Shown here: piece by piece, positions 32,154-37,135 of the stretch | How the letters are laid out: every line of letters starts with the position of its first letter | Position numbering within the stretch: position 1 is the first letter of the stretch | Assembly (NCBI GenBank): GCA_016875225.1 | Contig: VGRW01000003.1 | Location: forward strand, 1 to 64,000 | Direction of reading: 5' to 3' | Length of the DNA stretch: 64,000 bases | Source of the DNA: Deltaproteobacteria bacterium | Lineage (GTDB): Bacteria; Myxococcota_A; UBA9160; SZUA-336 | Notes under the pieces: model-generated | Database searches by the model: none | What the model saw: only the letters and a program-made list of their open reading frames with translations | Told to the model about the DNA's origin: nothing | Program-made: the position numbers and the translations under genes

Positions 32154-33293
32154 CTAGCGCCTGGCGACGAGACGCCGCGCGTGCTGGTCCCTGTACGTGC
32201 TCACGCCCTCGGCAATGCCCTGCGCAGCCTTGCGCGCGAAGACGTCGCTGCTCAGTCGCTTCGCCTCGGCCGGATTCGAGACGAAGCCGACCTCGACCAG
32301 AATGGCCGGCATGTCGGCTTGGAACAGCACCAGGAAGGGCCCGCGCTTCACGCCGAGATCGACCGTCCCGGGGTAGCTCTTGCGCAGCCGCGAGACGAGC
32401 GAGCGCTGCACGAGCTCCGCGTAGCGGGCGGCGTAGCGCTCGTTGTTCCCGAGCTTCAGCGAGGCCAGGATCCGGTGCAGCTCCGAGAGCCCGGCCACGG
32501 TCGTGCCGTTCTCGCGCGCGGCGACGCGCGCGGTCTGGCGGTCGTAGCGCGTGTCGAGCAGATAGGTCTCGACCCCCGCGAGCTTGCTGTTGCGCGCGGC
32601 GTTCGCATGCACCGAGATGAACAGATCGGCGTTCTCGCGGTTGGCGATGTCGGTGCGCGCCTCGAGCGGCAGGAAGACGTCCGAGCTGCGGGTCATCACG
32701 ACCTCGAAGCCGCGCCGCTCGAGCTCCCGCCGGAGCTCACGCGAGATCGAGAGCACCAGCGCGGCCTCGCGGAGCTTGCGAGCTCCGATCGCGCCGGGAT
32801 CCTTGCCGCCATGACCGGCGTCGATCGCGATCCTCCGCACGACGCGCTGGTCCCAGTCCTCGGAGTCGAGGGTCTCTGCGGCGGCCGGCGCGCCCTTGGG
32901 GATCTCCACGACGATCCGGAACGGCGACTCGAGCGCGAAGATCGTCGGGCGCGGCGAGGTCTCTGCGAGCTCGAAGACGACGCGCGAGCGCTGCAGGGTG
33001 TTCTGCGCCCCACGCACCAGTCGCAGGTTCGAGCTCGCCTCTGGCGCCTGCGCCGCTCCGACCGGCGGCTCGATCCAGGTCCCGTCGACGTCGACGTAGA
33101 GCCGGCGCGGACCCGAGAGCTCGTTGACCGAGTACGGCGACTTCCGCGACAGCTCGATCTCGACACGCGTCCGTGTCGGCGAAGTCTCGACCGAGATCGC
33201 GCGCACGTCGCCGAGCCCGTCGGGGCGCACGCCGGCGCCGAGGCCCGAGATCGCCAGCAGAGCGAGAAGCAGCGAACGCAGGCGCCGGATCAA
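32154..33293 (-). CDS. amiC: N-acetylmuramoyl-L-alanine amidase (AMIN + Amidase_3)
   Basis: A 379-residue cell-wall amidase that cuts septal peptidoglycan. A signal peptide precedes an AMIN domain (about 30-130, SVETSPTRTRVEIELSRKSP) that targets the septum. A zinc Amidase_3 domain follows (about 152-370) with IAIDAGHGGKDPGAIG (His ligand), REAALVLSISRELRREL (Glu), FISVHANAA (His) and VEVGFVSNPAEAKRL (catalytic Glu). The regulatory insertion helix of E. coli AmiC is represented by ELHRILASLKLGNN. The TTG start at 33293 overlaps the mutS stop (TTGA), so the order mutS-amiC-glnD is transcribed as one unit. Confidence 0.92.
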   Translation of the reverse strand: MIRRLRSLLLALLAISGLGAGVRPDGLGDVRAISVETSPTRTRVEIELSRKSPYSVNELSGPRRLYVDVDGTWIEPPVGAAQAPEASSNLRLVRGAQNTLQRSRVVFELAETSPRPTIFALESPFRIVVEIPKGAPAAAETLDSEDWDQRVVRRIAIDAGHGGKDPGAIGARKLREAALVLSISRELRRELERRGFEVVMTRSSDVFLPLEARTDIANRENADLFISVHANAARNSKLAGVETYLLDTRYDRQTARVAARENGTTVAGLSELHRILASLKLGNNERYAARYAELVQRSLVSRLRKSYPGTVDLGVKRGPFLVLFQADMPAILVEVGFVSNPAEAKRLSSDVFARKAAQGIAEGVSTYRDQHARRLVARR

Positions 33294-35842
33294 GAGGGAT
33301 CTCCGGCCAGGCGCTTCAGCCGGTCGATCGCGACGAGCGCCTCGATCGGCGTCATCTGGTCCGGCTCGAGCGCGCGCAGCGCGGCGTGGAGCGGATCGGG
33401 CTCAGGCGCGAACAGGCCGAGCTGGGCGGGCTCACCGGCTGCGCCGGGCGCGCGCGCCAGGCGCGGAACACCGCGTTCATCGAATTCCCCCCCTTCGAGG
33501 TTGCGCAAGACTTCCCGCGCACGTCGGATGACCTTGGGGGGGAGTCCGGCCGTACGCGCCACATCGATTCCGTAGCTGCGACTGGCGGCTCCGGGCTCCA
33601 TTCGCCGCAGGAAGAGGATCTCTCCGTCCTGCTCGGCACAGGTGAAGTGGTAGTTCCTCACCGCCGACTTCGTCCGGGCCAGATCCGCCAGCTCGTGGTA
33701 GTGAGTCGCGAACAAGACCCGCGCGCGCAACCCCGGTGCGTCGTGCAGGTGCTCCGCAACCGCCCAGGCGATCGAAAGTCCATCGAAAGTCGAGGTTCCG
33801 CGGCCGATCTCGTCCAGCAGAACCAGGCTCCGGCCGGTCCCCTCGCGCAGGATCGCCGCCGTCTCGCGCATCTCGACCATGAAGGTGCTCTCGCCGGTCG
33901 CGAGCGAGTCGGAGGCCCCCACCCGGGTGAAGATCCGGTCGGCGATCCCGATCCGCGCGCGTCGCGCGGGAACGAACGAGCCCATCTGCGCGAGCAAGGC
34001 GATCAGCGCCACCTGCCGCAGCAACGTCGACTTCCCGGCCATGTTCGGCCCGGTGAGGATGAGGAAGCGCACGTCCTCGCCGTCCAGCCGGACGTCGTTC
34101 GCGACGAAGTCGCGCGTGCCGAGCTCCACCACGGGGTGTCGTCCGGCCTCGATCTCGATCGCGAGCGTCGAGTCGAGCTCGGGTCGCACCCAGCCGCGCT
34201 CGCGCGCGACGGTCGCCAGCGACTGTGCGACGTCGAGCTCGCCGATCGCGAACGCCGAGCGGCGCACGCGCTCTGCCTGCGTGCGCAGTCGCGCCTTCAG
34301 CGAGTCGACCACGCGCAGCTCCGCCGCTGCAGCGCGCTCGCGCGCGCGGAGCGTCACGTTCTCCCAGCGCTCGAGCTCGTCGGTGGTGTAGCGCTCGCCC
34401 GAAACCGTCGTCTGTTTGCGCCGGTATTCGGGCGGCACGAGCCCGAGGCGCGCCTTGGTCACCTCGATCGACCAACCGAAGATGCGGTTGTAGCGGACCT
34501 TCAGCGTGGGAATGCCGGTGCGCGCGCGCTCGCGCGCCTCGAGCTCGGCGAAGAACGCCTCGCCTTCGATCGACTCGCGGCGGATCTGGTCGAGCTCGGC
34601 GTCGACGCCGTCTCGGACGTAGCCGACGTGCGGCTCGCCACGGGGTGCCGGCGGCGGCTCGTCGACGAGAACGCGCTCGAGCTCGACGCGCACGTCGTCG
34701 AGCGGATCCGAGATCGGCGCGGCACCGGCCACGCGAGCCACCCCGCAGAGGCAGGCGCGAAGCTGGGCCAGCTCGCGCGGACCGCCGGTCGGAAGCGTCG
34801 CGCGGGAGAGCGCGCGCTCCAGGTCGCCCACGCTGCGCAGAGCCTCGCGAAGTGTCTCGCGGGCGGAGTCCGGCTCGAGCCAGGCCGCGACCCGCTCCTG
34901 CCGCGCCCCGATCGCGACCGGGTCGAGAAGCGGTTCGCCGAGCCAGGTCGCGAGGCGGCGCCGGCCGAGCGGAGAGCGCGTCTCGTCGAGCGCGGCGAAG
35001 AGCGTGCCTTCGCGCCCTCCGTCGTGGCTGTTCTCGAACAGCTCCAGGTGGCGGCGCGTCGCGCGATCGAGCGTCAGGAACTCGGCGACTCTGTAGCGGC
35101 GCAGCTCGCCCAGCTGCGCGAGAGAGGCGGGCTGCAGCCGCGCGACGGTGGCGAAGAGGGCCGCGGCCGCGCGAGCCGCCGCGCAGGTCTCGTTCGCATC
35201 GAGGCCGTGCGGGAGCCGACCGATCCGATCCGCGACCGCGCGCGGCTCGAAGTCGGCATCCGCGACGCGGCGCACGGCCACTCCGCGCGGCAGATCCTTC
35301 TCGACGTCGCGGGCGATCAGCTCGCGCGGCCCGATCCGATCGAGCTCGGCCTCGACGATCTCGCGCCGGTCGCTCTCGGTCGCCGCGAACTCTCCCGTCG
35401 ACAGATCGAGGTACGCAAGCCCGTGCAGGTCCGACTCCCGGATCAGCGCCGCCAGGTAGTTCGCGCCCGCGCCCTCGAGCCGGTCGGCGTTCGCCACCAG
35501 CCCCGGAGTCACGACCTCGACGATCTCGCGCCGCACCAGCCCCTTTGCCGCGCGCGGATCCTCCACCTGCTCGGCGATCGCGACCGAGAGCCCCGCCGCG
35601 AGACAGCGCCGGAGGTATCCCTCGAGCGCGTGAAAGGGCACGCCGCACATCGGCACGGGCTGCGGCGAGTCCTTCTCGCGCGAGGTCAGGACCAGGTCGA
35701 GGAGCGGAGCGGCGGTCTCTGCGTCGGTCTCGAAGAGCTCATAGAAATCGCCCATCCGGAAGAAGAGCAGCGCATCGCCTGCCTGCCGCTTGAGCTCGCG
35801 GTGCTGGCGCATCATCGGCGTCTCGCTGCGGCGCGGCTCCAC
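33290..35842 (-). CDS. mutS: DNA mismatch repair protein MutS
   Basis: An 850-residue MutS that recognises mismatches and starts repair with MutL. The mismatch-binding N-terminus has LLFFRMGDFYELF, with the Phe-x-Glu wedge. The connector, lever and clamp follow, then the ATPase with Walker A ILTGPNMAGKSTLLRQVA near 610. The signature GESTFMVEMRETAAIL, Walker B SLVLLDEIGRGTSTFDGLSI and ATHYHEL come next. The C-terminus has the helix-turn-helix PPKVIRRAREVLRNLEG. The GTG at 35842 is the longest start; an internal ATG at PMMRQHREL would shorten it by 9-10 residues. It is divergent from the aromatic leader and DAHP synthase. mutL is not in view. Confidence 0.97.
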   Translation of the reverse strand: MEPRRSETPMMRQHRELKRQAGDALLFFRMGDFYELFETDAETAAPLLDLVLTSREKDSPQPVPMCGVPFHALEGYLRRCLAAGLSVAIAEQVEDPRAAKGLVRREIVEVVTPGLVANADRLEGAGANYLAALIRESDLHGLAYLDLSTGEFAATESDRREIVEAELDRIGPRELIARDVEKDLPRGVAVRRVADADFEPRAVADRIGRLPHGLDANETCAAARAAAALFATVARLQPASLAQLGELRRYRVAEFLTLDRATRRHLELFENSHDGGREGTLFAALDETRSPLGRRRLATWLGEPLLDPVAIGARQERVAAWLEPDSARETLREALRSVGDLERALSRATLPTGGPRELAQLRACLCGVARVAGAAPISDPLDDVRVELERVLVDEPPPAPRGEPHVGYVRDGVDAELDQIRRESIEGEAFFAELEARERARTGIPTLKVRYNRIFGWSIEVTKARLGLVPPEYRRKQTTVSGERYTTDELERWENVTLRARERAAAAELRVVDSLKARLRTQAERVRRSAFAIGELDVAQSLATVARERGWVRPELDSTLAIEIEAGRHPVVELGTRDFVANDVRLDGEDVRFLILTGPNMAGKSTLLRQVALIALLAQMGSFVPARRARIGIADRIFTRVGASDSLATGESTFMVEMRETAAILREGTGRSLVLLDEIGRGTSTFDGLSIAWAVAEHLHDAPGLRARVLFATHYHELADLARTKSAVRNYHFTCAEQDGEILFLRRMEPGAASRSYGIDVARTAGLPPKVIRRAREVLRNLEGGEFDERGVPRLARAPGAAGEPAQLGLFAPEPDPLHAALRALEPDQMTPIEALVAIDRLKRLAGDPS

Positions 35843-35896
35843 GCGCGCAGTCTAACGCGTTGACGGCGGGCCGCGGCCTGCGGTACAAAGCCCTCC

Positions 35897-35977
35897 GTGA
35901 GCCACGCGCGCTTCTTTCACGCGTTCTACTTTGGCTGGCAGGCCGACCGGGCCGCGGCAGGAGACGCGAGCGCGTAG
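35897..35977 (+). CDS. Aromatic leader peptide (26 residues)
   Basis: A short open frame, GTG at 35897 to TAG at 35975-35977, directly upstream of a rho-independent terminator and the DAHP synthase gene. Residues 6-14 are FFHAFYFGW, that is four Phe, one Tyr and one Trp in nine codons. The rest of the peptide (QADRAAAGDASA) is unremarkable. A ribosome stalled at these codons would leave bases from about 35950 onward free. The geometry matches trp- and phe-type leader peptides that sense charged tRNA. The peptide itself needs no function beyond being translated. Confidence 0.85.
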   Translation: MSHARFFHAFYFGWQADRAAAGDASA

Positions 35978-36034
35978 GGCGCAGTCCAAACCAGTCGCCG
36001 CAGCCCCGGGAGGCCTCTCTCGGGGTTTTTTTTT
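35947..36034 (+). terminator. Attenuator: terminator with competing antiterminator
   Basis: The terminator is a 9-pair stem CCCCGGGAG (36004-36012) with CTCTCGGGG (36017-36025), loop GCCT and one G.T pair, followed by nine T residues at 36026-36034. A competing stem is CCGGG (35947-35951) with CCCGG (36005-36009), stacked on GCGGC (35954-35958) with GCCGC (35997-36001). It would block the left arm of the terminator. That upstream strand overlaps leader codons 17-21. A ribosome paused at codons 6-14 would leave most of it free, while one reaching the TAG would cover it. This is standard transcription attenuation; base pairing is read by eye, energies not computed. Confidence 0.85.
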
Positions 36035-36061
36035 GCGCGCGAACGACCGACCGGAGATCCC

Positions 36062-37135
36062 ATGCAAGCCAGGAACGAGAGCTCTCCAAACGACCTGCCC
36101 ACACCCGCCGCGCTTCGCGCGAAGCTCGAGAGGAGCCCCGGCGTCGAGCGCACCGTGGAGCGCGGACGCTCCGCGATCCGCAACGCCCTGCACGGCCGCG
36201 ACGCTCGGCTCGTGGCGATCGTCGGGCCCTGCTCGATCCACGAGCGCGACTCCGCGCTCGACTACGCGCGCCGCCTGGCGCGGCTCGGTGCCGAGCTCGA
36301 CGACGCGCTGATCCTGGTCATGCGCACCTACTTCGAGAAGCCGCGCACGTCCCTCGGCTGGAAGGGGATGATCAACGACCCGCGGCTCGACGGCTCCTGC
36401 GAGATCGGGCTCGGCCTGGAGCGCGCAAGAGAGATCCTGCTCGCGATCGGCGAGCTCGGCCTCGCCTGCGGCAGCGAGCTTCTCGATCCGATCACCCGGC
36501 ACTACATCGGCGATCTCCTCGCTTGGGTCGGAATCGGCGCGCGCACCTCGGAGAGCCAGATCCACCGCGAGATGGCCAGCGGCCTGCCCATGCCGGTCGG
36601 CTTCAAGAATCCCACCTCGGGCGAGCTCGCTCCCGCACGCGACGCGATCCTGGCTGCGCGCAGCCCCCATCGACACCTCGGCATCGCCGCCGACGGCGGC
36701 TTCCGGCGCATCGAGACGCGCGGAAATCCCGACGTCCACCTGGTGCTTCGCGGCGGCGAGCGCGGGCCCAACTACGGAGCGCGCGACGTCGCGCGCGCGG
36801 CCGAGCTGACCTCGATGCTCGGGCTGGCCCGGCCGATCCTGATCGACTGCTCGCACGCGAACGCCGAGAAGGACCACCGCCGCCAGCCGCACGTGCTGCG
36901 CGAGGTGCTGCGCCAGCTCGAAGCGAAGGCGAGCCCGATCCTGGGACTGATGCTCGAGAGCCACCTCGAGCCCGGACGCCAGGCGCTGCGAGCCGGCGAG
37001 CCGATCGCCTACGGCGTCTCGCTCACGGATCCTTGCCTGGGCTGGGACGAGACCGAGGCTCTGCTCCGCGAAGCCGCCGCGTGCGCTCGCGCCTCGAAAC
37101 GGCTCGAGCCAGCCGCTAGCATGGCGCCCGCCTGA
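36062..37135 (+). CDS. aroG: 3-Deoxy-7-phosphoheptulonate synthase (DAHP synthase, class I)
   Basis: A 357-residue AroF/G/H-type enzyme that condenses phosphoenolpyruvate and erythrose 4-phosphate, the first shikimate step. Substrate motifs visible are AIVGPCSIH near residue 54 and [16 protein letters not shown] near 90. [20 protein letters not shown] near 158 and [10 protein letters not shown] near 180 follow, with metal and substrate contacts in [20 protein letters not shown] near 260. Feedback sensitivity (Phe, Tyr or Trp) cannot be told here. It starts 27 bases after the T-run of an aromatic attenuator, whose leader encodes Phe, Tyr and Trp codons, so expression should fall when aromatic amino acids are plentiful. 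Confidence 0.96.

Follow-up and report, generated by a model that had tools for sequence, protein, structure and literature searches.

Ribosome-mediated attenuation is a classical mechanism, and the ilvGMEDA and thrABC leaders of E. coli illustrate that one attenuator may carry codons for several related amino acids, although these are branched-chain or Thr/Ile codons and not aromatic ones. In the E. coli trp and pheA leaders, an open reading frame (ORF) rich in cognate codons is combined with an antiterminator that shares the 5' arm of the terminator. Attenuators of DAHP synthase genes are on record as well. The aroR-aroF attenuator of Corynebacterium glutamicum has a leader whose key run is Phe-Tyr-Phe and, as later papers summarize the original work (Neshat et al. 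2014, via PMC11802643 and PMC4046766), is relieved by phenylalanine limitation, tyrosine being without effect. In Acholeplasma, the uORFC-13-1 motif, which precedes aroF, is a predicted uORF with one or more Phe codons and an intrinsic terminator (PMC8632094), and an older attenuation hypothesis for E. coli aroF appears as a citation in the same paper. Leaderless leader peptides are also known: the transcripts of trpL1 and leuL of Streptomyces lividans (PMC8079986) and of trpL of S. meliloti (PMC7298713) begin at the leader start codon, and in S. lividans, where several leader peptides are leaderless, the mean distance from the -10 element to the start is 6.3 nt (PMC8079986).

The locus described here lies in a 64-kb stretch of DNA (the window) and resembles these systems in part. 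Like the E. coli trp and pheA leaders, it has a cognate-codon ORF and an antiterminator that includes the terminator 5' arm; those leaders differ in having a single amino-acid specificity, a Shine-Dalgarno sequence, a clear 1:2 pause hairpin and other target genes. As in C. glutamicum aroR-aroF, with which it is compared by literature description only, a leader peptide with aromatic codons precedes a DAHP synthase gene, here under proposed ribosome-mediated attenuation; the key run of aroR is described as Phe-Tyr-Phe, whereas the leader in the window contains Phe, Tyr and Trp and belongs to an unrelated lineage. It shares with uORFC-13-1 a uORF with Phe codons followed by an intrinsic terminator before a DAHP synthase gene, but that motif is confined to Acholeplasma and unassigned environmental sequences, has a ribosome-binding site and requires at least one Phe codon instead of three aromatics (PMC8632094). 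Its transcript would probably start with the leader GTG itself, as is known for S. lividans trpL1 and leuL and S. meliloti trpL, which in turn are Trp- or Leu-specific and have other targets. The type of system is therefore already known, and DAHP synthase attenuators are recorded elsewhere, in Corynebacterium and Acholeplasma; in the open-access literature, to which our search was confined (subscription literature lay outside it), we found no description of a three-aromatic DAHP synthase leader or of any such element in this lineage. The features of the locus are as follows.

33290-35842, minus strand: mutS, divergent, on the other side of the intergenic region
35860..35889, plus strand: candidate sigma-70-like promoter, recognized from sequence, with TTGACG at 35860-35865, an 18-nt spacer and TACAAA at 35884-35889
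35897..35977, plus strand: leader peptide ORF, VSHARFFHAFYFGWQADRAAAGDASA and a stop, with a GTG start and without a Shine-Dalgarno sequence
35912..35938, plus strand: regulatory codons F6, F7 (then H and A), F10, Y11, F12 (then G) and W14
35947..35958, plus strand: segment 2, the left strand of the antiterminator, CCGGGCCGCGGC, within codons 17-21
35997..36009, plus strand: segment 3, the right strand of the antiterminator, GCCGCAGCCCCGG, overlapping the terminator 5' arm
36004..36034, plus strand: intrinsic terminator, with stem 36004-36012 / 36017-36025 and T-run 36026-36034
36053..36056, plus strand: GGAG, read as the probable Shine-Dalgarno sequence of the DAHP synthase gene
36062..37135, plus strand: type I-alpha DAHP synthase (AroF/G/H family), assigned by profile matches; the regulated gene in the proposed scheme

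The leader ORF comprises 26 codons, from GTG at 35897 to TAG at 35975-35977, with aromatic residues at codons 6, 7, 10, 11, 12 and 14. Its stop codon lies 26 nt before the terminator, in which 36004-36012 (CCCCGGGAG) pairs with 36017-36025 (CTCTCGGGG) through 9 pairs, including one G-U, around a loop of four bases, and nine Ts follow at 36026-36034. The alternative stem, 35947-35958 with 35997-36009, has about 11 pairs, one bulge and one mismatch, and its left strand falls in codons 17-21. All three elements had been named in the initial annotation of this DNA, and all three are present. The downstream gene encodes 357 residues and scores far above the profile cut-offs for DAHP synthase (NCBIfam TIGR00034, 397 bits against 173; PRK12755, 453 bits against 343).

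We propose that a ribosome-mediated transcription attenuator of the trp/phe type, sensing charged aromatic tRNAs, very probably controls this DAHP synthase. In this scheme, the probable transcription start is the GTG or a position beside it, and a ribosome would load on the leaderless message. When charged tRNA-Phe, tRNA-Tyr and tRNA-Trp are ample, the ribosome would reach the stop codon and block the pairing of segment 2 as segment 3 emerges; the hairpin at 36004-36025 would then form and transcription would end, as in the standard mechanism. For lack of any one of these charged tRNAs, the ribosome would stall at codons 6-14, so that segment 2 would pair with segment 3, including the terminator 5' arm, the terminator would be pre-empted and the polymerase would enter the gene.

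The pairing of an aromatic ORF with a terminator is not a chance occurrence. When the 219-base intergenic region was shuffled with its dinucleotides preserved, 21 of 5000 versions contained an ORF bearing five or more aromatics within 12 codons, and 0 of 5000 contained such an ORF together with a terminator within 60 nt. On both strands of the window there are two such aromatic ORFs, of which only that at 35897-35977 is followed by a terminator. In another reading, the hairpin would terminate constitutively or bound transcription from the mutS side, and the aromatic ORF beside it would be incidental; mutS does diverge from the same intergenic region, and genomes of this kind often contain GC-rich hairpins. 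The shuffles argue against this reading, as do the presence of the pair at 31 of 31 clade-A loci compared with 0 of 15 clade-B loci and the co-variation of leader and terminator arms, both set out below, and we consider it very improbable.

The DAHP synthases collected from 91 genomes of the class fall into clade A, which scores better and includes the gene in the window, and a paralogous clade B. The initial annotation had read the region as an attenuator and had proposed a search of related genomes, and that comparison bears the reading out: an aromatic-rich leader ORF with a terminator precedes the gene at all 31 readable clade-A loci, which span most families of the class, and at two more loci that were found by pattern. 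By the same measure, leader and terminator were found in 0 of 15 regions upstream of clade-B paralogues and 0 of 19 regions from other classes of the phylum. The clade-A terminators begin 21-50 nt past the leader stop in the 31 loci, with tails varying between nine Ts and T-rich runs that are interrupted. At a 32nd clade-A locus (G090), the leader contains Ns, and segment 2 and the terminator are retained. A DNA pattern consisting of segment 2 and the terminator gave nine matches in the 91 whole genomes, and a reversed control pattern gave none; seven of the nine were loci already known, and the other two, G004 and G081, when read directly, also precede a DAHP synthase gene, bringing the readable leaders to 33. 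With the device preceding DAHP synthase genes in no fewer than 33 related genomes, there is hardly any doubt that it is a real switch.

In a phylogenetic tree, three comparison rows on very long branches (P_G148, P_G155 and B_G038) were disregarded as probable translations in a wrong frame, and a single clade, with support of 100/99, unites those genes of the class that bear a leader. This clade also contains genes of Nitrospira (L031-L033) and of another class (G314 and G172), and the attenuator was detected in none of these; probably they reflect transfer without the attenuator or its loss. The genome of the window has a second DAHP synthase (L143; contig C52, 6498-7253, minus strand), which is of the B. 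subtilis-like type I-beta family, and no aromatic leader was found in the sequence upstream of it, so the switch would control one of two entry enzymes.

The competing stem is conserved beyond synonymous expectation and co-varies across the class. In each genome, the strongest pairing of the distal part of the leader ORF with the terminator 5' arm plus six bases was compared with that in 300 synonymous recodings; the native duplex was stronger, with a mean z of -2.27, and 21 of 31 genomes passed the 95% level. This complementarity is specific for each genome's own arm: native combinations averaged -23.5 kcal/mol against -20.4 kcal/mol when arms were swapped between genomes, and none of 20000 permutations was as good. 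The alternative stem suggested in the initial annotation thus has its counterparts in the relatives. Segment 2 is mostly CCGGGGC, paired with GCCCCGAG, and co-variation is visible by eye where G016 has CCAGGGCC with GGCCCTGG, G030 has CGGGGT with ACCCCG and G032 has GGGCTCGG with CCGAGCCC. In the genome of the window, the antiterminator duplex (-18.8 kcal/mol) compares with -16.3 kcal/mol for the terminator hairpin, and taken alone it is not exceptional among its synonymous recodings (z -0.55), so the case for its antiterminator rests on homology and on the comparison across genomes. The whole leader of the window folds no better than shuffles (z -0.33), a measure that was uninformative, and selection for a 1:2 pause hairpin is not visible in the self-folding of the leaders (z -0.43, with 6 of 31 genomes below -1.65).

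These comparisons also bear on two further explanations. Either the leader peptide or the leader RNA released at the terminator might act in trans, as do peTrpL and rnTrpL of S. meliloti, with the competing stems being secondary, and short leaderless leader transcripts with trans functions do exist (PMC7298713); however, it is the complementarity in cis that is conserved, whereas the peptides share little apart from their aromatic residues, and we regard an action in trans as improbable. A T-box or riboswitch, that is, a tRNA- or ligand-binding element in place of a translated leader, would have a parallel in the elements that control aromatic genes in Firmicutes. This seems scarcely credible, since selection acts on an ORF with cognate codons and a search against the families of Rfam 15 at gathering thresholds gave no match anywhere in the 64-kb window.

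The behavior of the attenuator when a ribosome occupies the leader was modeled by folding the RNA downstream of the ribosome before and after the terminator 3' arm exists. The ribosome's front edge was placed 12 nt beyond the first nucleotide of the codon in the A site. Before the 3' arm exists, the modeled antiterminator occupancy averaged 0.76 with the ribosome at the best stall codon, a figure somewhat favored by the choice of the best among several codons, and exceeded 0.5 in 30 of 31 genomes; with the ribosome at the stop codon, the mean was 0.15 and no genome of the 31 exceeded 0.5. The E. coli trp leader, used as a positive control in the same model, gave 0.62 at the Trp codons and 0.00 at the stop. 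In the genome of the window, predicted occupancy was 0.62-0.67 for stalls at F6, F7, F10, Y11 and F12 and 0.17 at the stop; the value of 0.37 at W14 may reflect a stalled ribosome that partly blocks segment 2, because this last Trp codon lies so near. With both arms present, the terminator is predicted to beat the antiterminator at equilibrium almost everywhere, in E. coli trp as well, so switching must be kinetic. With no ribosome, the leader of the window is predicted to antiterminate at 0.67, compared with 0.07 for E. coli trp; together with the lack of a visible 1:2 hairpin, this implies that an untranslated leader might not shut the gene off.

The position of the candidate promoter suggests how translation of the leader would begin. 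The predicted transcription start is at about 35896, that is, at the leader start codon, the -10 element ending 7 nt before the GTG. Over the 31 leaders, the promoter score peaks at exactly this spacing (mean 5.03, against a baseline of 3.12 with a standard deviation of 0.25), and the best promoter has its -10 end 5-12 nt before the start in 17 of 31 leaders, where about 1.7 would be expected. Most leaders therefore appear to be leaderless, and in a minority of at least three relatives (G032, G052 and G055) the promoter instead lies about 30 nt upstream, accompanied by a Shine-Dalgarno-like site.

The peptides themselves diverge widely, and what they have in common is their composition. Phe, Tyr and Trp together make up 25% of residues in the leaders compared with 3.8% in the DAHP synthases, and they occur in 33, 33 and 32 of the 33 leaders, where the composition of the DAHP synthases would predict 11.8, 8.5 and 8.4, respectively. 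All three are found together in 32 of 33 leaders, a retention that gives good support, at the level of sequence, to the proposal, made in the initial annotation, that one attenuator listens to several aromatic pools. Codon choice is also biased: TTT accounts for 55 of 120 Phe codons in the leaders and 10 of 171 in the adjacent GC-rich genes (p=5e-16), and TAT for 20 of 45 Tyr codons against 11 of 115 (p=2e-6), both p values being too small because related genomes were counted as independent. This excess would fit selection for slow decoding, and AT-richer codons could alternatively serve to keep the leader ORF unstructured. The selection on codon content also lends indirect support to translation of the leader.

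We give about an even chance to the view that a single leaderless attenuator, kept class-wide on one DAHP synthase isozyme and not on its paralogue, responds as an OR gate to the charging state of tRNA-Phe, tRNA-Tyr and tRNA-Trp; if true, the first reaction of aromatic synthesis would be tied to any aromatic pool that runs short. It is possible, though we hold it to be somewhat unlikely, that the attenuator is real but effectively a phenylalanine sensor, to which Tyr and Trp contribute little. Phe codons do dominate (120 of the 212 aromatics that 31 leaders contain), in the model most of the stalls that best free segment 2 in the window are at Phe codons, the position of the Trp codon being unfavorable, and C. 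glutamicum aroR, with its Phe-Tyr-Phe leader, responds to phenylalanine limitation and not to tyrosine availability in the summary given in PMC11802643. Against a pure phenylalanine sensor stand the retention of Tyr in 33 and Trp in 32 of the 33 leaders, compared with the 8.5 and 8.4 expected, and the many relatives in which Trp or Tyr occupies stall sites with high predicted antiterminator occupancy. Thus, sequence retention argues for three-pool sensing, and the placement of W14 and the precedent of C. glutamicum argue that Phe may dominate.

Similar leaders were observed outside the class. In Pseudomonas and relatives (L035-L110), a three-aromatic leader ORF precedes a DAHP synthase gene of a related subfamily by about 370-450 nt, as in L058; one example reads VSFYFGYWFSHWRA and is followed by a terminator, CCCCGGTCGG...CCGACCGGGG. 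Among the loci from named genomes, 71 of 80 passed the test for a leader plus a terminator, nearly all of them in Pseudomonadales. The ribosome-mask model gave a weaker contrast for the Pseudomonas leaders (0.54 stalled against 0.33 at the stop), and we therefore make no mechanistic claim for them. A second small, Tyr-rich ORF lies between the leader terminator and the DAHP synthase gene in L035, L040, L058, L077, L093 and L106; a WRF motif recurs in most of these ORFs (for example, MISYRTYQTYYRNSDWRFSR and MNYATYYRYDTCTAWRFSQ), which could encode a second regulatory peptide. In a SAR202 Chloroflexota MAG (L052), a Phe/Tyr-rich leader, MENKFFQHAQFYYFSSLSQLPIKALCKL, with a hairpin and a run of ten Ts behind it, lies upstream of the DAHP synthase gene at 1046 and is a predicted attenuator of similar kind in another phylum.

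Together, these results would bring the entry to the shikimate pathway, in a lineage about which little is known, under translation-dependent attenuation and would show which of two DAHP synthase isozymes is under control. The aromatic leaders of Pseudomonas suggest that the arrangement is more common than the searched literature records, and the 33 natural variants found across the class provide material for asking how one leader may read three amino acids.
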